Shown in pieces: positions 1 through 29,678 of a stretch of DNA of 29,678 bases. The notes below the pieces were generated by a model. That model worked only from the letters and a program-made list of their open reading frames with translations, was not told the DNA's origin and made no database searches. The translations under genes were made by a program, and so were the position numbers. The stretch's first letter is position 1; every line of letters starts with the position of its first letter. The stretch is from a virus: positions 1 through 29,678 of the IMG/VR virus record IMGVR_UViG_3300009159_000223. The stretch is one strand, 5' to 3'.

Positions 1-123
1 CGAAGTATCTAAAGTACCATTTGCGTTAATTCTACAGATACGAGAATAACTATTACCACTAACTACATTAAAAAATCCACCTACTAATATTTTACCATCA
101 GCTTGAATTGTCGAGCAAAAAGA
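1..123. repeat. Direct terminal repeat, left copy
   Basis: These 123 bases are identical to positions 29556-29678. The copies sit exactly at the two ends and both read in frame through the same gene, so this is the overlap of a circular or circularly permuted molecule rather than a dispersed repeat. It could be an assembler overlap or a true short terminal redundancy; the sequence alone cannot separate the two. Confidence 0.97.
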
Positions 124-540
124 ATATGGTGTGTTTGTACTACCCGTCCATAGTAATGGTAATTGTGTAAAGGTACCATCATTTGCACCTGTACTTGTAA
201 ATCTATCTATTAGTATATTGTCTCTACCAACAGCGATTACTTTACCATCCGCTTGTTCTACAACTCCTCTCGCAGTAAATGTTTGAGATGGGTTAAAGCT
301 TGTATCTAAATTACCTGTTTTTTTAAGTTTGAAGACAGTATCTATTGGATATCCACCATAGTTATCAATATCCCCACCAACAAATAAATCTCCTGATACA
401 GAGTTAATATACATACTCTCAACTGAGCAACACATATTCAACAAATCAAAACATCCAATAGGACATTCCGTATTAGTAGGAGTGATAGTTGGACTATAAC
501 TCGGGGTATTACTTGGTGTAGGACTAACTCTTATTCTCAT
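1..540 (-). CDS. Delta-60 beta-propeller tail protein, N-terminal part (gene continues across the circular junction)
   Basis: This is the 5' end of the gene that ends at 27000. The ATG at 540-538 opens a frame that stays open to position 1 (180 codons) and continues in frame at 29555, giving 1031 residues in all. It starts with a short proline/threonine tract (about residues 6-25) followed by Cys26 and Cys30. Delta-60 repeats (DUF5122-like, pattern DGKILVGG...RLN.NGSLDTSF) begin near residue 41; repeats 1, 2 and most of 3 lie here. The start is only 4 bases after the stop of the 153-residue P/T gene upstream, so the two are very probably co-transcribed. No signal peptide is seen. A role as a tail-tip adhesin or receptor-binding protein is inferred from the domain type and the position between tail genes. 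Confidence 0.88.
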   Translation of the reverse strand, partial: MRIRVSPTPSNTPSYSPTITPTNTECPIGCFDLLNMCCSVESMYINSVSGDLFVGGDIDNYGGYPIDTVFKLKKTGNLDTSFNPSQTFTARGVVEQADGKVIAVGRDNILIDRFTSTGANDGTFTQLPLLWTGSTNTPYSFCSTIQADGKILVGGFFNVVSGNSYSRICRINANGTLDTS

Positions 541-544
541 ATTT

Positions 545-1006
545 TTAACATATTGCGATTATACTGATTATAGGAGAACCAGTCCATCCTAAAGTTCCAT
601 CAATAATACAAGTCGTAAATATTGTGGTAAATGGAGGTATCGTTCCTCCTGTTGGATTACCAGAAACACATAATAATCCGCTCCAACTTATTTCATTTCC
701 TGTACTGTTTTCTATTTCATACTCAATACAATCAAAAGGGTCATAAGGAGAACTTGGTGTAATACTTGGGGTTGGAGTTTGCGTAGGTGTAGTTTCTGTT
801 CCTGTTGGTGTTGCGGTATTAGTTGGAGTGCTTGTAGGAGTTACTGGTATTGTTCCTGTTTGTGTTTGTGTCTGTGTGGGACTTTGCGTCATAGTAGGAG
901 TTAAACCAGGACATACTGTACCAGTCGCAGTTTGCGTTGGAGTGATACTTGGAGTTAAACTCGGTGTTGCCGTTATACTTGGAGTGGGAGTTTGCGTAAA
1001 TCTCAT
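545..1006 (-). CDS. Short P/T-rich tail protein with a four-cysteine module
   Basis: The protein has 153 residues. Residues 5-88 are an almost pure Thr/Pro/Ser tract made of TPTPS, ITPT and similar units, with one Cys at residue 32. Residues 93-153 form a compact module with cysteines at 93, 113, 133 and 153, spaced exactly 20 apart, the last being the final residue. The same spacing is seen near the C-terminus of the upstream 1085-residue protein and in the propeller protein downstream. It lies between these two large genes, 20 bases after one and 4 bases before the other. It is probably an accessory tail-fibre or tip protein, but no named family is recognised. Its opening residues resemble those of the next gene (MR.....PTPS.T), which suggests duplication or fission. 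The leader contains GATATTTATAAGTA before the ATG. Confidence 0.8.
   Translation of the reverse strand: MRFTQTPTPSITATPSLTPSITPTQTATGTVCPGLTPTMTQSPTQTQTQTGTIPVTPTSTPTNTATPTGTETTPTQTPTPSITPSSPYDPFDCIEYEIENSTGNEISWSGLLCVSGNPTGGTIPPFTTIFTTCIIDGTLGWTGSPIISIIAIC
743..994 (-). repeat. P/T-linker low-complexity tract
   Basis: This GT-rich tract (as read on the plus strand) encodes residues 5-88 of the 153-residue protein. It is the longest of six such tracts longer than about 90 bases. On the opposite strand it produces spurious Gly/Val-rich open frames. Confidence 0.85.
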
Positions 1007-1020
1007 TACTTATAAATATC
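1007..1020 (-). promoter_or_regulatory. Recurring GATATTTA leader before the 153-residue P/T gene
   Basis: Sense GATATTTATAAGTA touches the ATG at 1006. One of six variants of the same element. Confidence 0.3.
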
Positions 1021-1025
1021 AGTTT

Positions 1026-4000
1026 TTAACAAGGTGTTCCTAGTGAGGTTATTGTGAAGGCAGCTAAGTCAGCATAAGGGAAACCTGGTAAGATACTTCC
1101 TTGTTGAACGCAGACACCAAACATTACTGGACTTGAAGCAGTATAAACATATTCATAATTTACAGACCCATCACAAGTAGTATATTTCAACCATCCGTTA
1201 TCAGTAATGTTTATTGTTGTGTTTAGATAACAATTAACACTTCTCGTAGGACTTGGGGTCATCGTGGGTGTAGGTGTGGTTTGTGTTGCTGCAGGTGTTC
1301 CCGTAGGTGTAGGCGACAAGAATGGTGTTAAGGTAGGTGTGGGTGTAGGTAAAGGTGTTGCAACTTCACAATCGACAACATCTTGGTTTATACAGATGGT
1401 AAATGTATTACCTGTAAAGTTTCCATAATTCATACATACATCAAACGCTTCATTAGGGTTTAAAGTCCAAGATGAAGTTGTACCACTACAATTCTCAAAA
1501 TAGAATGTAGAACGACTAGTTCCTGTGTTTGTTATTTGGTAGGTATCACAATTAGTTCTACCTGTTTCAGTAAACTCATCGTATGGTGGTGCGAAATAAT
1601 TTGGAAATGCTGTATTGATAGTACAACCTGTTCCCACAAAGTAAGGGTATAATCCAAATCTACCACTTAATGCATTTGCTACCTGACTATACAAATATGG
1701 TGTGGTATATTCATAATCAGGGTTAAATTCAGTCTGTACTACTTTATAAGTAAATTGGTTTTCCTCCTCACCTAAAACTACTACGTATTGACCTTCAAAA
1801 GCGTATATGTGATAAATTAAATCTGTTGTTGTATGGATAACTGGTCTATCACAATCACAAGGTATTAGGTCATAAAACCTTATAGGGAATGGTGTATAGT
1901 CTCTTGTTAGTTTAACCAACTCAACATTACATAAACCAGGTTGTAATAAACTTAAACCTGATATTTTGTTAATTCTCCAATAAGCATTCTTAATTATAAT
2001 CTTTTCGTTGAAATATAATTGTGATACTTCCCACGGAGTTAGATACATCTTACACTGCATAATCTTATTCTCAGGTGATGTAAGGTCTTCTATATAATCT
2101 CTATAAAAGATATCATATTGAGTTGCTGCTTCAGGATAAATAAGTTCGTCAGGTGTAAATGTGTCTGTTGAATTATAAGTGAGGTAGTGGGAGAACCCTG
2201 TTAATGCAAATGGATAAGTAGTTAATCTATTATAATTTTGGTAATACGCAACGGGGAATGCATCACCACCAAATCTTACATACCAAGAGTTTTGCCCAAC
2301 GGCATCATTTGTTAAAGGAAATCCTCTAAAAGCGACTCTTGGTAATGAACGGAATGGTCTAAATTCAAACGATACCTTACCATTTGAACTATTTTGTTTC
2401 GTAATGAAATAACAACTCAAAGCTGGATTTGTAGTGCCTGATGCATTTAGGTAATAATCTGTGTTTTGACCTAAGGTCTGTGTTAGATTAGTTTGTGCGT
2501 TCTTATAGTCTTCACCTAAATTGATGATGTTTTGCCCAAAAATTAAATTAGACCTTGTATTAAACTGAGTGTTAATATAGTCCTTATCCATTTTGTTCGC
2601 TAAAAATATTGAGCCGTTGATGATTGATGAGGTGGGAGTTAAGGTGATTGAGGAGTCCCAATCAACTTTATTAGTCCAATCGAGGACTTCTCCTTTACCT
2701 ATATAATCAATCATAGGTTCAACAATTAACGTATTTGGTTTAATAGGGTGCTCCACTACCACAAGATTAAACATCTTGTTAATATTTTGTATAAAATCAA
2801 TTTGTTTAATTTCACAGGACATCTCCTCATTTAATTTAATATATGAAGGTAATGCTTGAGACTGACCGATAACTGTAAGTCTAATATCAACATATTTGAA
2901 ATCTGGTACAGGTGGTAAGGCTAAAATCATATAATCAAATCCATTATATAAACCTAAAGTACTAAATGTTGTTGAAGTATATGTGTTTTCAGCTTGAATA
3001 CCAGTAGTGGCATTATAACCATATAATGTAAGAGCGGTAGGCGGTGATGTTTCTATTGCGGAAATTAAACCAAAACTTTCACCATTAACAACAAGAACTC
3101 TGGCATCACCTAATAATATCGGGTCAAAATCTCCACTTGGAGTACCCAAATATTCACTAACAACACTTAAGGCTATTTTATATTGTCCTTGTGGAACTTT
3201 AAACATAGCATAGTTTAATCCACCAACAATAGGGTCTGCAGGTGGATAGGCTGGATTATATCCAAGGTTTTCATAAACGACTTCTATAGGGAATACAATA
3301 TCTAATGTTGTTGGAGGGTTAGGAAATATTGAAACAGAGAATGGTTGGTAAGAGTCTCCAACACTTGCAGAGGTTGTCCCTGTTGTGTTAAAAAACTGAA
3401 ACTCATATTTCTTTGACTGTGATAGATAAACTGACTCTGTGTTAAACGATAGGGGTAAGTATTGTCTTCCAAAATAATCTGTAGCAAAAAACTCACTCTC
3501 AATCGTATAACCAGCATCACTCATAATAAGTTCATATAGTTTTCTTACACGAAGGTTAGGTATTAAGTAGGCTAAGTTTACAGCGTTTGGGTATCCACCT
3601 AAAACGTCCCAATAATCAAAAAATCCTGGTACTCCTGAGAATGCCAGTACAGGTGTGTTTGCTGTATCAATATCTCGTATATCATTAAACGTATTACCTG
3701 TATAGTCATAACCTCTTTGGGCTAACATCAAATTAACATCACCATTTACGGTAGAGTTATTTACGTACGGTTCATAAAATCCAGTACCATCTAATTCATT
3801 AAGAACATTTATATTTTGGAAACTCGGGTCATCAAGCCAAAATACGTTATCGGTTAATCCTGAAACATAATAATTCACAGGGGTTGTATCGACCTCACAT
3901 AAGGACTTATCCCCTATGTTTGCGACAACATCTCCTACTGCGTTATAGAAACTAATGGAATATATTTTTTCTGTCTTATTGATAGATACAGAGTTCATAC

Positions 4001-4283
4001 GGACATAACCATTATAGATTTCAAATCCATCGTATAATAAGTCAGCCTCAAACTTCTTCTTGGGGTTCCAATCTAGATATACTGAATTGATATCAAAAAA
4101 GTAATTGAATATGTCGTTGTTGTTCTTACTACCAGGAACTCTAAACTCTTTAGTAAAGGCACTATTCTTTTTAGTGATATCCTGTATCTCGGCAAATGAT
4201 ACTTCTATGTCTATGTCTTCATTACCATATAACTCTAAGTATTTTTGTTCTCCATTTACATAAGTCCTTATTTGTAATCCCAT
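1026..4283 (-). CDS. Large tail tip/hub-like structural protein with C-terminal P/T linker and four-cysteine modules
   Basis: The protein has 1085 residues. The N-terminal ~120 residues (LELYGNEDIDIEVSF, then FTKEFRVPGSKNNNDIF) match, from memory, a conserved group of virion proteins in flavobacterial and other Bacteroidota siphophages, probably distal-tail or tail-hub associated. The long middle part has no motif I can name. Near the C-terminus a four-to-five-cysteine module (residues 912-972: Cys 912, 932, 950, 964, 972) is followed by a P/T linker (973-1017) and a second cysteine module (Cys 1018, 1037, 1058, 1085) that ends on the last residue. It starts 3 bases after the previous stop. 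The body probably attaches to the tail and the cysteine/PT end is probably an exposed host-contact region; both statements are inference. Confidence 0.82.
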   Translation of the reverse strand: MGLQIRTYVNGEQKYLELYGNEDIDIEVSFAEIQDITKKNSAFTKEFRVPGSKNNNDIFNYFFDINSVYLDWNPKKKFEADLLYDGFEIYNGYVRMNSVSINKTEKIYSISFYNAVGDVVANIGDKSLCEVDTTPVNYYVSGLTDNVFWLDDPSFQNINVLNELDGTGFYEPYVNNSTVNGDVNLMLAQRGYDYTGNTFNDIRDIDTANTPVLAFSGVPGFFDYWDVLGGYPNAVNLAYLIPNLRVRKLYELIMSDAGYTIESEFFATDYFGRQYLPLSFNTESVYLSQSKKYEFQFFNTTGTTSASVGDSYQPFSVSIFPNPPTTLDIVFPIEVVYENLGYNPAYPPADPIVGGLNYAMFKVPQGQYKIALSVVSEYLGTPSGDFDPILLGDARVLVVNGESFGLISAIETSPPTALTLYGYNATTGIQAENTYTSTTFSTLGLYNGFDYMILALPPVPDFKYVDIRLTVIGQSQALPSYIKLNEEMSCEIKQIDFIQNINKMFNLVVVEHPIKPNTLIVEPMIDYIGKGEVLDWTNKVDWDSSITLTPTSSIINGSIFLANKMDKDYINTQFNTRSNLIFGQNIINLGEDYKNAQTNLTQTLGQNTDYYLNASGTTNPALSCYFITKQNSSNGKVSFEFRPFRSLPRVAFRGFPLTNDAVGQNSWYVRFGGDAFPVAYYQNYNRLTTYPFALTGFSHYLTYNSTDTFTPDELIYPEAATQYDIFYRDYIEDLTSPENKIMQCKMYLTPWEVSQLYFNEKIIIKNAYWRINKISGLSLLQPGLCNVELVKLTRDYTPFPIRFYDLIPCDCDRPVIHTTTDLIYHIYAFEGQYVVVLGEEENQFTYKVVQTEFNPDYEYTTPYLYSQVANALSGRFGLYPYFVGTGCTINTAFPNYFAPPYDEFTETGRTNCDTYQITNTGTSRSTFYFENCSGTTSSWTLNPNEAFDVCMNYGNFTGNTFTICINQDVVDCEVATPLPTPTPTLTPFLSPTPTGTPAATQTTPTPTMTPSPTRSVNCYLNTTINITDNGWLKYTTCDGSVNYEYVYTASSPVMFGVCVQQGSILPGFPYADLAAFTITSLGTPC
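1233..1367 (-). repeat. P/T-linker low-complexity tract
   Basis: Encodes residues 973-1017 of the 1085-residue tail protein, directly between Cys972 and Cys1018. Confidence 0.85.
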
Positions 4284-4286
4284 ATA

Positions 4287-5891
4287 TTAACCTTGTGTTG
4301 AGTATCGTTTTACGCTTGCGTAGTTTAGTGTAAAGGTGTATTGAAATATCTTTTGATATCTACGTTGGTATCTCTCTAATGACTTCTCCTCAATCACCAC
4401 AGGGATAAGATGTTCGTATAATCTAATCTCATTCAAACAAGACTCACAGTTATCAATATTGTGGATACAACGAGGTATCATACCTGTCCCTTTAATAATA
4501 TATACTTCAGGAGAGAAAAAAATCTCTTCTACAATAGAGGTATCGTTTTCATCCATAAACCAAGACTGGCATTTAACTTTGTAATCACCAATTTGGTCGT
4601 AGATATTTGTTCCACGTTCGTATGAACCTCTTGAATAGAATTGTTTGTTTAACGAAGCTTCTTTACGATATGACTTACGTTCAACTTCAAATGTCTTTGA
4701 TGACTTCTTACCAAATGAATATGTGTCCCACTGCCCTCTACCATTCAAAAAAAGCAGATGTACTGGCTGGTTAAGACAGTCATAAGGTTGCATCATAAAC
4801 TCTAATACTTCACTACTTCTTGCACTAAATGATAAGTCCTCTGTCGTTGGAGTGGTGTAGAAACAAACCTTCTCAGCAGCAGTTGGAATTACATTTGTAC
4901 CTTGTGCTGTTATGTTATATGGTAAGTAGAATACCCCCATCTTGAATAAGTCCCACACGTTGTATAGTGTTGAGTCGTTTGCTGTATATGCTGAGTATGT
5001 GTATGGTGTATCAGCAAATAAAGATGCTCTTGATACTAACGCTTGTGTTTGATTATTAAAGTAGTCATTCTGTCCGTCAAGGAACGATACGATGATAGGA
5101 CAATCAGGGTGATGCATTCTCGTTCTCATAGCGTGTGATACGATATCAGGTTGACTTAATGTCTTGTAATATCTACCAGCAGCGTTTAGGAACTCTCTTG
5201 GCCCACAAGTTGTATCAGGCCCTTGGGTAAAGATGTTTCTAAATAAGTTGTAGTAATAGAATGATTGGTTATTAACTTGGAAGAAGTTAGGTGATTGTGT
5301 ATAACCTGACCCTAATGTTGCTCCTGATAAATAAGGTTCAGGGATAAGTGAGTTATCCACACCAGGGAATATGTTAATAGGGTATGGTTGGTATGAAGCT
5401 ACGGGGTCAATATCATATATAATTGAACCAGCTGATGTGTCTTCATATTCACACCCCACGATTACTTGGTATTGTTCTATGTGCCATAATGTCTCAACAT
5501 CAGGGTTGATGTCTCCATTAGGCCATAGGTTATAGGCGTTGTATGTTCTTGTTTGTGTCGCATCACTTAAGGTAATAATAGAGTTTTCTTCAGCAACAAA
5601 GTTCAAGTATGGATAAGTTGTTCCACTCATTCTTGGATTGGCTGTTAAGAAGTTTCTAACAATTTGTTCCAAATCAACTATAGCTTTACCATAAGAGTTT
5701 GGTCTCACCTTTAGTCTTGCTGTTGGTTGTGGGTTATTATTAAAATCTACACTATCAGGACGGAAGTATATGTCGATGATATACTTGAAGTTCTGTAAAG
5801 TATAACCTGTTGATGAAAAAGTCCAAATGTGTTCCGCATTACTTGGTGTAATTGTTAGCGGGGACTGGTCTATATTGATTATTACGCTCAT
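4287..5891 (-). CDS. Conserved tail/virion structural protein
   Basis: The protein has 534 residues and no enzymatic motif. Its N-terminal part (IWTFSSTGYTLQNFKYIIDI, then ARLKVRPNSYGKAIVDLEQI) resembles a family found in tail operons of Bacteroidota siphophages, usually annotated as hypothetical or structural. A C..C..C cluster (CIHNIDNCESC) lies about 60 residues from the C-terminus and may be structural. It lies 7 bases after the gp10-like gene and 3 bases before the 1085-residue tail gene, so it belongs to the tail operon. It may be a baseplate or distal tail component; the exact role is not shown by the sequence. Confidence 0.78.
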   Translation of the reverse strand: MSVIINIDQSPLTITPSNAEHIWTFSSTGYTLQNFKYIIDIYFRPDSVDFNNNPQPTARLKVRPNSYGKAIVDLEQIVRNFLTANPRMSGTTYPYLNFVAEENSIITLSDATQTRTYNAYNLWPNGDINPDVETLWHIEQYQVIVGCEYEDTSAGSIIYDIDPVASYQPYPINIFPGVDNSLIPEPYLSGATLGSGYTQSPNFFQVNNQSFYYYNLFRNIFTQGPDTTCGPREFLNAAGRYYKTLSQPDIVSHAMRTRMHHPDCPIIVSFLDGQNDYFNNQTQALVSRASLFADTPYTYSAYTANDSTLYNVWDLFKMGVFYLPYNITAQGTNVIPTAAEKVCFYTTPTTEDLSFSARSSEVLEFMMQPYDCLNQPVHLLFLNGRGQWDTYSFGKKSSKTFEVERKSYRKEASLNKQFYSRGSYERGTNIYDQIGDYKVKCQSWFMDENDTSIVEEIFFSPEVYIIKGTGMIPRCIHNIDNCESCLNEIRLYEHLIPVVIEEKSLERYQRRYQKIFQYTFTLNYASVKRYSTQG

Positions 5892-18773: not shown

Positions 18774-19946
18774 TTACCACGAGGTATAGTTCCACTTATC
18801 CTTAAGATAGTTTTGAACCTGTGTTTGTTCTCCTGCCGTTAATGGTCTACCAAATACCATAATCTCACCAATCTCAGCTCCTGCGTTAATAGTTGTACTA
18901 AGAGTTCCGCCTGAAGTTGGTGATGTTCCAATAGTAAATGCGTTTATATTAGATAAAGTTGTTCCTGTAATATTAGTTGACGTTCCTGTAGTTGAATTGT
19001 TTAATACGGTATTTCCAAGTCCTGATGGATAAGGGATTACTTGAGTATATAAAAACTTATTATTCAAGGTATTAGCTGAAAAACCTACAATACCCACAGC
19101 TCCAAGTACAGTATATCCAGAACTAATGGTATTAGTTTGTATTGTATTATTCGTACCATTATTAAAGTTTAATGAATAAGCTACAGGGAATGAACTAGGA
19201 GTTGGTATAAACCCTCCTGTTGTGGTATTACCTGAATATAAAATGAGATTTACCCCAAACCCATTAACTGTAGTTGAAGCACTATAGTTATAACCTGGAT
19301 TGGTAATAACCATAAAGGTTGTTGACCCTGAAACAGGAACTACGGTATTGTCGAACCTTTGAGTTAAGAAATCTCTTAGTCCTGCTGTCGCACTCTTAGT
19401 GAACCTCACAACAAGTGGTGAACCTGGCAATTGACTTGAACCAGACCATATTGGCATCGTGTCTGTAGTTGTCCCTGTAAGGACTTTTTGATACGTTCCA
19501 ATACTTCTCCAAGCAGATACATAATTTGTACCTCCTGAAGAGATATAATCAATAGAACCTAAGTTAGTTGAGTCATACCATAATGATGGTGTTTCAGGTA
19601 ATGGATATGGTGTAGAACTTGGCGTAATAGTTGGAGTGAAACTTGGAGTGGGTGTAGGCGTGGATGTTGTTGTAGTTGTGGGTGTGGGAGTTGGCGATAC
19701 ATTAGGTGTTGATGTTCCTTGTGGAACAACTCCTGCTTGTTGTCCGTCATTCTCCATTTGAGTTTTTGGCATCAAGTCAATACGTCTGTATCTTGACTTC
19801 TTTAAATCCCAAGCGTCCATAGGGTTCGCATTTAATGGCGTTTTTTCCTTGTTTGTTGCAAGACCAGGTTGATAAAAGTAAGTCTGTTGCTTACCCAATA
19901 CTCCCCAAGTTTTTTTACCTATATTTTGTTTCCCGAAATTTCTCAT
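18774..19946 (-). CDS. P/T-linker protein with C-terminal LamG/concanavalin-like domain
   Basis: The protein has 390 residues. Residues 1-70 are basic and may anchor it to the virion. Residues 79-120 are a Thr/Pro tract (SPTPTPTTTTTSTPTPTPSF). The rest begins SLWYDSTNLGSIDYISSGGT, is beta-rich, and ends with GAEIGEIMVFGRPLTAGEQT, QVQNYLKDKWNY, the usual C-terminal signature of LamG/concanavalin A-like lectin domains. Such domains bind carbohydrates, so this is a likely capsid- or tail-borne adhesin. Unlike the other P/T proteins it has no cysteines around its linker. It follows the terminator at 19962-19990. Confidence 0.82.
   Translation of the reverse strand: MRNFGKQNIGKKTWGVLGKQQTYFYQPGLATNKEKTPLNANPMDAWDLKKSRYRRIDLMPKTQMENDGQQAGVVPQGTSTPNVSPTPTPTTTTTSTPTPTPSFTPTITPSSTPYPLPETPSLWYDSTNLGSIDYISSGGTNYVSAWRSIGTYQKVLTGTTTDTMPIWSGSSQLPGSPLVVRFTKSATAGLRDFLTQRFDNTVVPVSGSTTFMVITNPGYNYSASTTVNGFGVNLILYSGNTTTGGFIPTPSSFPVAYSLNFNNGTNNTIQTNTISSGYTVLGAVGIVGFSANTLNNKFLYTQVIPYPSGLGNTVLNNSTTGTSTNITGTTLSNINAFTIGTSPTSGGTLSTTINAGAEIGEIMVFGRPLTAGEQTQVQNYLKDKWNYTSW
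19587..19712 (-). repeat. P/T-linker low-complexity tract
   Basis: Encodes residues 79-120 of the lectin-like protein. The plus strand shows repeats such as GTGGGTGTAGGCGTGG-like units, as in the tracts of the tail genes. Confidence 0.8.
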
Positions 19947-26999: not shown

Positions 27000-29678
27000 T
27001 TAACAAGTTCCATCTTGTGCGATGATTTCTAAACAGTTGGGTAATGAACTAAATCCTACATTTGGAAAAGTCATAATAAACGAACCTGTTGAAGTGTTCT
27101 GGCAAGCATATCCTGTGATTGGTGAACCAATCTCTATTCTTTGACCTGCCACAGAACACGTATAAGCAATCTGTACGTCATAGGTTCCTGCCGCTAAACT
27201 CACTTCTAAATTAGTTCCGTTTCCTGGTGTATTCGGCATCATACCTCCAGTAACTGACGCTATTAAGTTATTAACTTTAACTTGAGTTATTACAACATCT
27301 AATGATGTGTTTGTTAATATGTCGATACATAAAGTTGATGCCGAGGTTGGACTAGGTGTTAAAGTCATCGTTGGTGTAATCGTAGGAGTTGATGTGGTAG
27401 TAGGAGTTACTGGTATTTCAGGACAAGGCCCTAAGAAACAACCAATACGAACCTCAACGTTATCACCGTTGTTTATAACCACACCTGATATTTGTGGGAA
27501 TGGATTTGTGGTGAAATATAAAATATTTGTTTGAACTCCATTTATTATTATTTCCATAAACGCACAATTTCCTGTACCAGGTATGTTAGTACTTACATTT
27601 GCTTGAATAGTATTACCAGCTCCACATATAACACCATTAGGATTTGATTTGGTACCATATAATCCTGATGTTAATGGAAAAGTACTTGGGCCTGATAAAG
27701 TATTCATAAACGACCCGTTAATACCAATATCATTTACCGTACCAAGTCCACAATCTGCGTTTCTTATAGTCCAATTTGTATTACAAGAAGCAGTAGGTGT
27801 GGTGGTTGGAGTTGCTGTTTGTGTTCTAGTAGGACTAGGTGTTAATGTTTGTGTGGCAGTTGCGGTAGGCGTGGGTGTGATAGGACATACTAATGTATTC
27901 ACATTATATGAAGTATCACTACTAGACTCTCTCATACCTGTACCAGGGAATGTAGTATAAAAATTATAATATCCTTGTGGTATTACATTACCTGAATAAT
28001 AAAAAGTTAAACTTGTATAATTACTACTTGGAGTTCTATTTATTCCATTATTGATGAAACTATATAAACCATTAGGACATAAAGGACAATTAGGAACTAT
28101 GATACTAACCCAAGTGTTATCCGCAGACCATATATTAGTATTTGTTATTGTAATAGGGTCTTCGTTAAGTGATACTGGCTCACTCATCAAAGCATTATTA
28201 TTACCTACTGTATAACCTGTATAATCAATATATGCATTCATTTGAGATTGGAATATAGATTGTACCGTTGAAGGTGAACCTACTGAATTAAACCCTCTAA
28301 ACGTACTACCTTTAGAAATCATCCAATTAGATAGATTTGTTCTATCACTATTAGCGTCGAATATTGCGTATGCTGTTGGATTAGCACAATAAGTTGGACT
28401 AGGTGTTATACTTGGAGTAAGCGTAGGAGTACTTGTGTTAGTTGTTGTAGGAGTCATCGTAGGAGTTCTCGTAGGTGTGGAAGTCATCGTAGGAGTCATC
28501 GTAGGCGTGGGAGTTCTTGTTGCAGTTGCTGTGGGTGTAGGCGTGGGTAATACACAAGAACCTATTTGTCTTATAGGTTGGGTATATGGAAGACTTCCTG
28601 GTACAATATATTTACCACATATTCTCTCACCTTGTGTAAAATTGGCATCAAATATCTCATTATTAGTACAATCAACATAACTAATAGGTGTTGTTCCATT
28701 ACCAACATTCTCGAACTCAAAACAACATATTACAGCAACATCTGTTCCTCCACTTACTATAGATGAATTGGTATTTAATATCTTTGTGGCACAAAAATTA
28801 TATGGTAAAGTATCGTTATTAAAAATCTCTTGTATTACACCATTACAATCAACTATTAGTGCTGTTCCTGATGTAAACCCATCTAATTTACTAATAGAAT
28901 ATTGATAACAGGTTCCTACTTCACATTCAAAAATATCACCATTTGGTAGTAATTCTGTGAATATGTTAATATCTGTATCTCCTTTGTATTTATCAAAATT
29001 ACCTCCAACGTATATGTGCCCATTATACTTTAGTTTAACAACTCTTGGATGTTGAAATGCTGCAGTACCAAAACCAGTACCGACATTTAATGACGCATCC
29101 CTTGTTCCATTTGAGAAGAGTTTAACCAAACCTTTTGATGATACCCCATTTACAGTTGTGAAATCTCCTGCGGCAAAAATACCACCGTTAATTGGCTCAA
29201 CGTCAATACTATATACAATACCACCATCGTTTAAGAATGCGGTTGTAAATGAACCATCTATACTACCATTACTATTTAATCTTAATATTCTACTTCGAGT
29301 ATTAACAGGACGTGAAGCTTCGTTTGTACCTACTAGTATTTTACCATTAGATAACAAATACATACTATATATGTCTCCAAAAGGTAAAACAGGAGATGTG
29401 AATGTACTATCAATAGAACCATTACTATTTAACCTAATAATTCCTGATGAAGAAAAACCTGAATATGTTTCAAACGTTCCTGCGACTAATATTTTACCGT
29501 CAGGCTGAATTGTAATAGAGGTAACCAGACTATTAAAACCTGTACCAACATTAAACGAAGTATCTAAAGTACCATTTGCGTTAATTCTACAGATACGAGA
29601 ATAACTATTACCACTAACTACATTAAAAAATCCACCTACTAATATTTTACCATCAGCTTGAATTGTCGAGCAAAAAGA
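27000..29678 (-). CDS. Delta-60 beta-propeller tail protein, main part (gene starts at 540 across the circular junction)
   Basis: The full protein has 1031 residues (180 codons at 540-1, then 851 codons from 29555). Seven delta-60 repeats run from about residue 41 to 388, each like QPDGKILVAGTF...RLNSNGSIDSTF, which fits a seven-bladed propeller. Two four-cysteine modules follow (Cys 396, 417, 435, 457 and Cys 458, 476, 493, 514). Three P/T linkers (515-569, 738-770, 892-922) separate beta-rich modules, and cysteines lie beside each linker; the last residue is Cys1031. No catalytic site is seen. It is probably a receptor-binding tail fibre. An internal ATG at 29363 is not the true start. The last 123 bases here repeat the window start. 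Confidence 0.9.
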   Translation of the reverse strand, partial: SFCSTIQADGKILVGGFFNVVSGNSYSRICRINANGTLDTSFNVGTGFNSLVTSITIQPDGKILVAGTFETYSGFSSSGIIRLNSNGSIDSTFTSPVLPFGDIYSMYLLSNGKILVGTNEASRPVNTRSRILRLNSNGSIDGSFTTAFLNDGGIVYSIDVEPINGGIFAAGDFTTVNGVSSKGLVKLFSNGTRDASLNVGTGFGTAAFQHPRVVKLKYNGHIYVGGNFDKYKGDTDINIFTELLPNGDIFECEVGTCYQYSISKLDGFTSGTALIVDCNGVIQEIFNNDTLPYNFCATKILNTNSSIVSGGTDVAVICCFEFENVGNGTTPISYVDCTNNEIFDANFTQGERICGKYIVPGSLPYTQPIRQIGSCVLPTPTPTATATRTPTPTMTPTMTSTPTRTPTMTPTTTNTSTPTLTPSITPSPTYCANPTAYAIFDANSDRTNLSNWMISKGSTFRGFNSVGSPSTVQSIFQSQMNAYIDYTGYTVGNNNALMSEPVSLNEDPITITNTNIWSADNTWVSIIVPNCPLCPNGLYSFINNGINRTPSSNYTSLTFYYSGNVIPQGYYNFYTTFPGTGMRESSSDTSYNVNTLVCPITPTPTATATQTLTPSPTRTQTATPTTTPTASCNTNWTIRNADCGLGTVNDIGINGSFMNTLSGPSTFPLTSGLYGTKSNPNGVICGAGNTIQANVSTNIPGTGNCAFMEIIINGVQTNILYFTTNPFPQISGVVINNGDNVEVRIGCFLGPCPEIPVTPTTTSTPTITPTMTLTPSPTSASTLCIDILTNTSLDVVITQVKVNNLIASVTGGMMPNTPGNGTNLEVSLAAGTYDVQIAYTCSVAGQRIEIGSPITGYACQNTSTGSFIMTFPNVGFSSLPNCLEIIAQDGTC
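27330..27422 (-). repeat. P/T-linker low-complexity tract
   Basis: Encodes residues 892-922 of the propeller protein, between Cys891 and Cys923. Confidence 0.8.
27786..27884 (-). repeat. P/T-linker low-complexity tract
   Basis: Encodes residues 738-770 of the propeller protein, between Cys737 and Cys771. Confidence 0.8.
28389..28553 (-). repeat. P/T-linker low-complexity tract
   Basis: Encodes residues 515-569 of the propeller protein, between Cys514 and Cys570. Short units such as GTAGGAGTCATC recur in it. Confidence 0.85.
29556..29678. repeat. Direct terminal repeat, right copy
   Basis: Exact copy of positions 1-123; see the left copy. It encodes residues of delta-60 repeats 3 and earlier that are also read at the window start. 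Confidence 0.97.

Follow-up and report, generated by a model that had tools for sequence, protein, structure and literature searches.

Module-bearing tail genes of a circular phage record

The window, meaning the whole stretch of DNA analysed, comprises the 29,678 bases of IMG/VR virus record IMGVR_UViG_3300009159_000223. It carries a 123-bp direct repeat at its two ends (1–123 and 29556–29678), which indicates that the record is circular and that the gene for a propeller protein crosses the join. With the record ends joined, this protein is a single chain of 1,031 residues, and all of its residue numbers given here (396–514 for the modules) follow the joined protein. Its DUF5122 propeller scores 153 bits in Pfam, against a gathering score of 27. 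Together with the 1,085-residue protein (P1085) and the 153-residue protein (P153), it holds five copies of a small four-cysteine module, and Pro/Thr-rich segments occur in all three proteins (Table 1).

Table 1 Positions of the module-bearing tail genes and their parts in the window
Feature	Position	Strand	Basis or remark
P153, 153-residue tail protein gene, slot after the hub	545..1006	-	End domain exchanged between relatives
P153 Pro/Thr-rich stalk, residues 1–90	737..1006	-	First ~35 residues conserved in relatives
P153 module, residues 93–153, four Cys	548..730	-	Profiles; model pLDDT 94.3
P1085, 1,085-residue baseplate hub protein (on its model)	1026..4283	-	Foldseek hub matches; orthologue of P12024S gp45
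Hub module M1, residues 912–972	1368..1550	-	Profiles; model
Pro/Thr-rich linker M1–M2, hub residues 974–1013	1245..1364	-	Mostly pLDDT below 50
Hub module M2, C-terminus, residues 1018–1085	1029..1232	-	Profiles; model
Propeller module MP1, residues 396–457	28725..28910	-	Profile comparison
Propeller module MP2, residues 458–514, directly abutting MP1	28554..28724	-	Profile comparison; shuffles
Propeller N-terminal Pro/Thr-rich segment, resembling that of P153	469..540	-	
Propeller protein, first part; gene continues over the join into 29678–27000	1..540	-	
Propeller protein, second part: DUF5122 propeller, MP1–MP2, three further Pro/Thr linkers, end domains	27000..29678	-	
P534, 534-residue tail protein, without module in the window	4287..5891	-	Relatives have 1 to 7 modules inserted

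The propeller protein closes with a domain (27000–27326, residues 923–1031, ending EIIAQDGTC) that resembles the ends of L113:2791–5484 (ending EIQAYDGTC) and L056:8172–10496. On this likeness it would be a further exchangeable end domain, bearing a cysteine of its own. Amid the head and neck genes, a 390-residue protein lacking cysteine (18774–19946) has a Pro/Thr-rich stretch near residues 68–113, so that stalks of this kind are not restricted to tail-tip genes.

Five copies of one homologous domain

The sequence-only reading of this DNA had described a module of ~60 residues with four cysteines, occurring five times in three tail genes, under the interval 395–1570. This interval holds three of the modules; the other two lie at 28554–28910, as that reading itself said. 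The cysteine positions it listed are exact: 93, 113, 133 and 153 in P153; 912, 932, 950, 964 and 972, and 1018, 1037, 1058 and 1085 in P1085; and 396, 417, 435 and 457, and 458, 476, 493 and 514 in the joined propeller protein. All three proteins also have cysteine as their last residue, as had been noted. The near-equal spacing fared less well. The exact 20-20-20 of P153 is real but carries no meaning in itself, because the three gaps vary across the family (14–27, 14–23 and 13–27 residues).

The profiles drew on viral contigs, in which we collected relatives of P1085 and the terminase; the ends of the P1085 relatives showed a conserved four-cysteine pattern. A profile free of window sequences, built from the non-hub modules of other phages and a single hub module, located at the far C-terminus of a fused protein, ranked P1085, the propeller protein and P153 as the top three of 236 window open reading frames (ORFs). 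When the window was searched with the larger final profile, five copies were recovered (E = 3e-17, 7e-11, 3e-14, 7e-9 and 9e-6), each matching over the whole domain with the four cysteines aligned, and a sixth was not found. P153, the weakest-looking copy, was still recovered at E = 1e-6 after all window sequences and all sequences from the P153 slot had been dropped. Profile–profile comparison with 74 modules of other proteins gave probabilities of 90% (P153), 99% (M1), 94% (M2), 95% (MP1) and 88% (MP2), against at most 1.2% for control segments from the same proteins. Since profile–profile E-values are pairwise, we added column shuffles with the cysteines held fixed; for each of the five copies, the real score exceeded those of all 60 shuffles. 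An iteration seeded with the single MP1 sequence drifted into the propeller blades and was discarded.

These profiles and shuffles show the five segments to be homologous copies of a single domain. By eye, the individual segments have little sequence in common, as would be expected if cysteines in low-complexity tail proteins had fallen into this spacing by coincidence; the jackknifed profiles, the cysteine-fixed shuffles and the negative controls refute that explanation, to which we attach practically no weight.

A cysteine-defined family on uncultured phage contigs

A hidden Markov model built from the modules recovered relatives among phage proteins, with their cysteines conserved. In all, 70 ORFs yielded about 99 distinct copies, nearly all on uncultured phage contigs, after 1 of 115 hits, on a Paenibacillus contig, had been removed as looking like chance. 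Conservation of the cysteines in homologues had been named beforehand as a point on which the idea could fail; the four core cysteines are present in 113–114 of the 114 aligned copies. The family signature reads C-x-x-Y-x-I-x-N ... [YW]-x-D-C-x-G ... C-A-x-x-G-[ST] ... G-x-C. A DNA-pattern search returned 30 viral stretches, with match lengths nearly all in one reading frame; the same pattern gave 10 matches of scattered lengths in a collection of bacterial and archaeal genomes. In a second group of phage contigs (L117, L121, L125 and L128), the module is joined by poly-threonine runs, not by Pro/Thr repeats.

Scans of 16 modules against Pfam, PHROGs and NCBIfam gave nothing above threshold. 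Within Pfam, these modules gave no match to BACON (PF13004) up to E = 1, and only single weak, sub-threshold hits to Ig-like families (best E = 0.035). A DUF4024 assignment for the array of contig L141 was rejected as sub-threshold (19.6 bits against 25). A PDB sequence search with two profiles found nothing, and tblastn with module-bearing queries gave no module match among cultured phages.

The family also has cellular members. Two of these, from Bacteroidota genomes, are short proteins in which an apparent signal peptide and a proline-rich stretch precede a C-terminal module. A third (L154:6371–9877), in non-phage surroundings, is an RHS-like Bacteroidota protein that ends in DUF5977 followed by the module, which places some of the family among the surface proteins of cells. 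Among 395 genomes sampled from this group at the phylum level, just 2 had a module match; the phylum was assigned by the name of the Ignavibacteria record at the centre of the genome search.

Predicted fold of the module

An AlphaFold model of the P153 module, computed from 91 family rows, shows a five-strand beta domain (pLDDT 94.3) with strands at 5–12, 18–24, 30–35, 39–47 and 58–64 and cysteines at 5, 25, 45 and 65 in model numbering. A separate model of the entire P1085 chain, built from hub relatives only, places the M1 strands at 912–919, 925–931, 936–941, 946–957 and 961–965, and those of M2 at 1018–1028, 1030–1036, 1041–1046, 1052–1055 and 1075–1080, with pLDDT of about 72–86 in the modules. 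Unrelated predicted structures would have spoken against a common domain. In the three copies modelled (P153 and both hub modules), the strand order A-B-C-D-E agrees: numbering the core cysteines C1 to C4, C1 starts strand A, C2 follows B, C3 lies in or near D and C4 follows the last strand.

Libraries of solved structures gave no Foldseek match at E ≤ 0.001, an absence that is not evidence of a new fold. The best VIA Z score, 6.0, was to non-Ig PDB proteins and is under the noise level of 8. In BFVD, proteins of uncultured phages matched over 63–66 alignment columns with TM scores of 0.76–0.78, at Foldseek E above 0.001; the best of them had a TM score of 0.78, 1.5 Å, 30% identity and E = 5e-3. 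One BFVD match is named major tail protein.

Paired extra cysteines favour disulfides over metal

Some family members carry cysteines in addition to the core four. A cysteine 2 or 3 residues before C1 occurs only alongside one at C3+2 (16 of 16 clusters at 50% identity, p = 7e-12; the reverse direction has two exceptions), and a cysteine at C1+2 only alongside one 4–8 residues after C4 (9 of 9 clusters, p = 4e-7); as the sequences are related, these p-values somewhat overstate independence, and the pattern spans diverse clusters. The gain or loss of extra cysteines in pairs, together with the apparent signal peptides of the homologues, is strong, if indirect, support for disulfides among the module cysteines. 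Of the "disulfide- or metal-stabilised" domain originally proposed, it is the disulfide half that is favoured. The linkage of C1-2/-3 with C3+2 fits antiparallel pairing of the C1 and C3 strands, and we tentatively assign the core connectivity as C1–C3 and C2–C4.

Two other roles for the cysteines can be weighed against this. Four cysteines invariant in every domain could hold one metal ion in the manner of a zinc module; however, the core lacks CxxC pairs, its cysteines lie 13–27 residues apart, the extra ones come in linked pairs as disulfides do, and the cellular homologues appear to be secreted. We consider metal binding very unlikely. Equally improbable, in our estimate, is that the cysteines covalently join neighbouring tail subunits instead of bracing each module. 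Such bonds between subunits of virion proteins have been shown in phage Milano (PMC10811340), but the four cysteines are kept alike in single-copy, stalk-tethered and cellular proteins, and the extra ones pair within one module.

The module at the baseplate hub and its neighbours

The model of P1085 matches DT57C, the lambda tail tip, the Algoriphagus eCIS, MuSo2 and Mu gp44 in Foldseek, with low TM scores over the whole model. On this predicted fold, which agrees with known phage hubs, P1085 is a baseplate hub. The model also has Foldseek matches to the Bacillus exosporium proteins ExsFA and BxpB, which suggest a jelly-roll insertion in the hub.

By sequence, P1085 is an orthologue of gp45 of Nonlabens phage P12024S, a cultured flavobacterium phage with the same gene order: terminase, gp44, hub, tape measure, protease, capsid, tube and portal. 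Its gp44 is weakly similar to P534. The P12024S hub has an annotated BACON domain at its end, where the module sits in the window phage and its relatives; our own scan placed it at residues 685–721 of 754, below threshold at 18 bits. From its relatives, the host of the window phage is probably a member of the Bacteroidota.

Across the phages, modules are found at the end of the baseplate hub, in the next two genes and, as arrays, in another tail gene, that of the P534 relatives. The idea that one domain is reused among tail proteins is upheld by homology, near-total cysteine conservation, the predicted fold and this hub context.

Duplication and exchange of end domains

The P534 relatives carry insertions of the module near residue 230: a single copy in L014 and others, three copies in L031 and seven in L141. 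Within L141, the module at the hub end and a module of the P534 relative share 77% nucleotide identity over 174 bp, a likeness which indicates that modules move between tail genes within a genome.

In the gene that follows the hub, relatives retain the Pro/Thr-rich beginning but differ at the end. The module is detected at E below 1e-3 in 16 of 28 proteins of the P153 slot, the rest having different or more distant domains. With domain types assigned partly by eye, L026 and L038 have hubs that are 96% identical and unrelated end domains, and L026 and L006 have hubs that are 60% identical and end domains that are 82% identical. The nearest relative of the window, L001, is 90% identical to it over 6,995 bp, to about position 833. 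The homology stops inside the Pro/Thr stalk of P153 and the sequences differ beyond; the L001 contig ends within an apparent different module type, which is cut off (E = 2e-4).

A probable exchangeable adhesion module

Homologous modules with conserved core cysteines and paired extra ones sit at the hub, form arrays and are swapped between phages. Receptor-binding or adhesion units would be expected to sit at the tip, to form tandem arrays and to be exchanged among closely related phages, as these modules are; the BACON-like domain that occupies their place in a cultured relative fits the same expectation. We therefore consider it probable, though well short of certain, that the module is an exchangeable, disulfide-braced adhesion module at the tail tip of Bacteroidota-type phages. 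A five-stranded beta domain of ~60 residues would be braced by two core disulfides and optional third ones, with flexible stalks rich in Pro and Thr tethering it to the baseplate hub and to other proteins of the tip nearby. The unit is copied and exchanged from gene to gene and from phage to phage, probably in part through recombination within the DNA that encodes the stalks, and the set of host-surface contacts could thereby change quickly. Its putative ligands are glycans or proteins of the host surface.

The main rival to adhesion is that the module decorates the virion without a specific receptor, lending weak general stickiness, spacing or stability, like many phage Ig-like domains. The variable-number arrays and the insertion inside P534 resemble accessory Ig-like domains, and the major tail protein among the BFVD fold matches also fits decoration, as does the swapping of modules. 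Yet the copies are concentrated in the genes of the hub and tip, and closely related phages differ in the type they carry, as host recognition predicts; we hold decoration to be unlikely, though far less so than metal binding or cross-linking.

The adhesion reading may extend beyond this phage. Somewhat more doubtfully than for the module itself, we propose that an undescribed disulfide-braced family serves uncultured Bacteroidota phages as a general currency of exchange for receptor binding at the tail tip, common to phages and the secreted proteins of their hosts and moved within and between genomes by recombination in Pro/Thr-stalk DNA. End-domain exchange at low-complexity linkers suggests a way in which tail tips may diversify. 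For phages that are known almost entirely through metagenomes, the module offers an approach to host recognition: its signature makes tip proteins searchable, natural swaps are visible in otherwise near-identical phages, and the small domain can be expressed and tested alone.

Relation to known systems

We found no description of the domain family, of its cysteine code or of the exchange of modules at Pro/Thr stalks in the open-licence literature searched; the kind of system is itself known. Ig-like accessory domains are optional, exchangeable beta domains added to the virion proteins of tailed phages. Unlike these, the module matches no Ig model above threshold and belongs to a disulfide-type family with its own signature. 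The subunits of Bacillus endospore appendages (Ena) are likewise small, cysteine-containing beta domains, and 59–64 of 65 residues were matched at Z scores of 4.2–4.9; these scores are within noise, there is no sequence match, and other, unrelated folds score higher.

In crAss-like and other gut phages, tail proteins contain tandemly repeated BACON domains, with a suggested role in host binding (PMC6949934). Like the module, BACON is a small beta domain of tail-associated proteins in Bacteroidota phages, occurs alone or in tandem, and is spread by duplication and horizontal transfer (PMC6949934). The module differs in its four conserved cysteines, its Pro/Thr-rich stalks and the absence of a Pfam BACON match. 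Agrobacterium phage Milano has tail proteins rich in cysteine, and its mature virion contains disulfides (PMC10811340). Many of the Milano bonds link subunits of the sheath and baseplate, whereas the module is a repeated, mobile domain that carries its own cysteine pairs.
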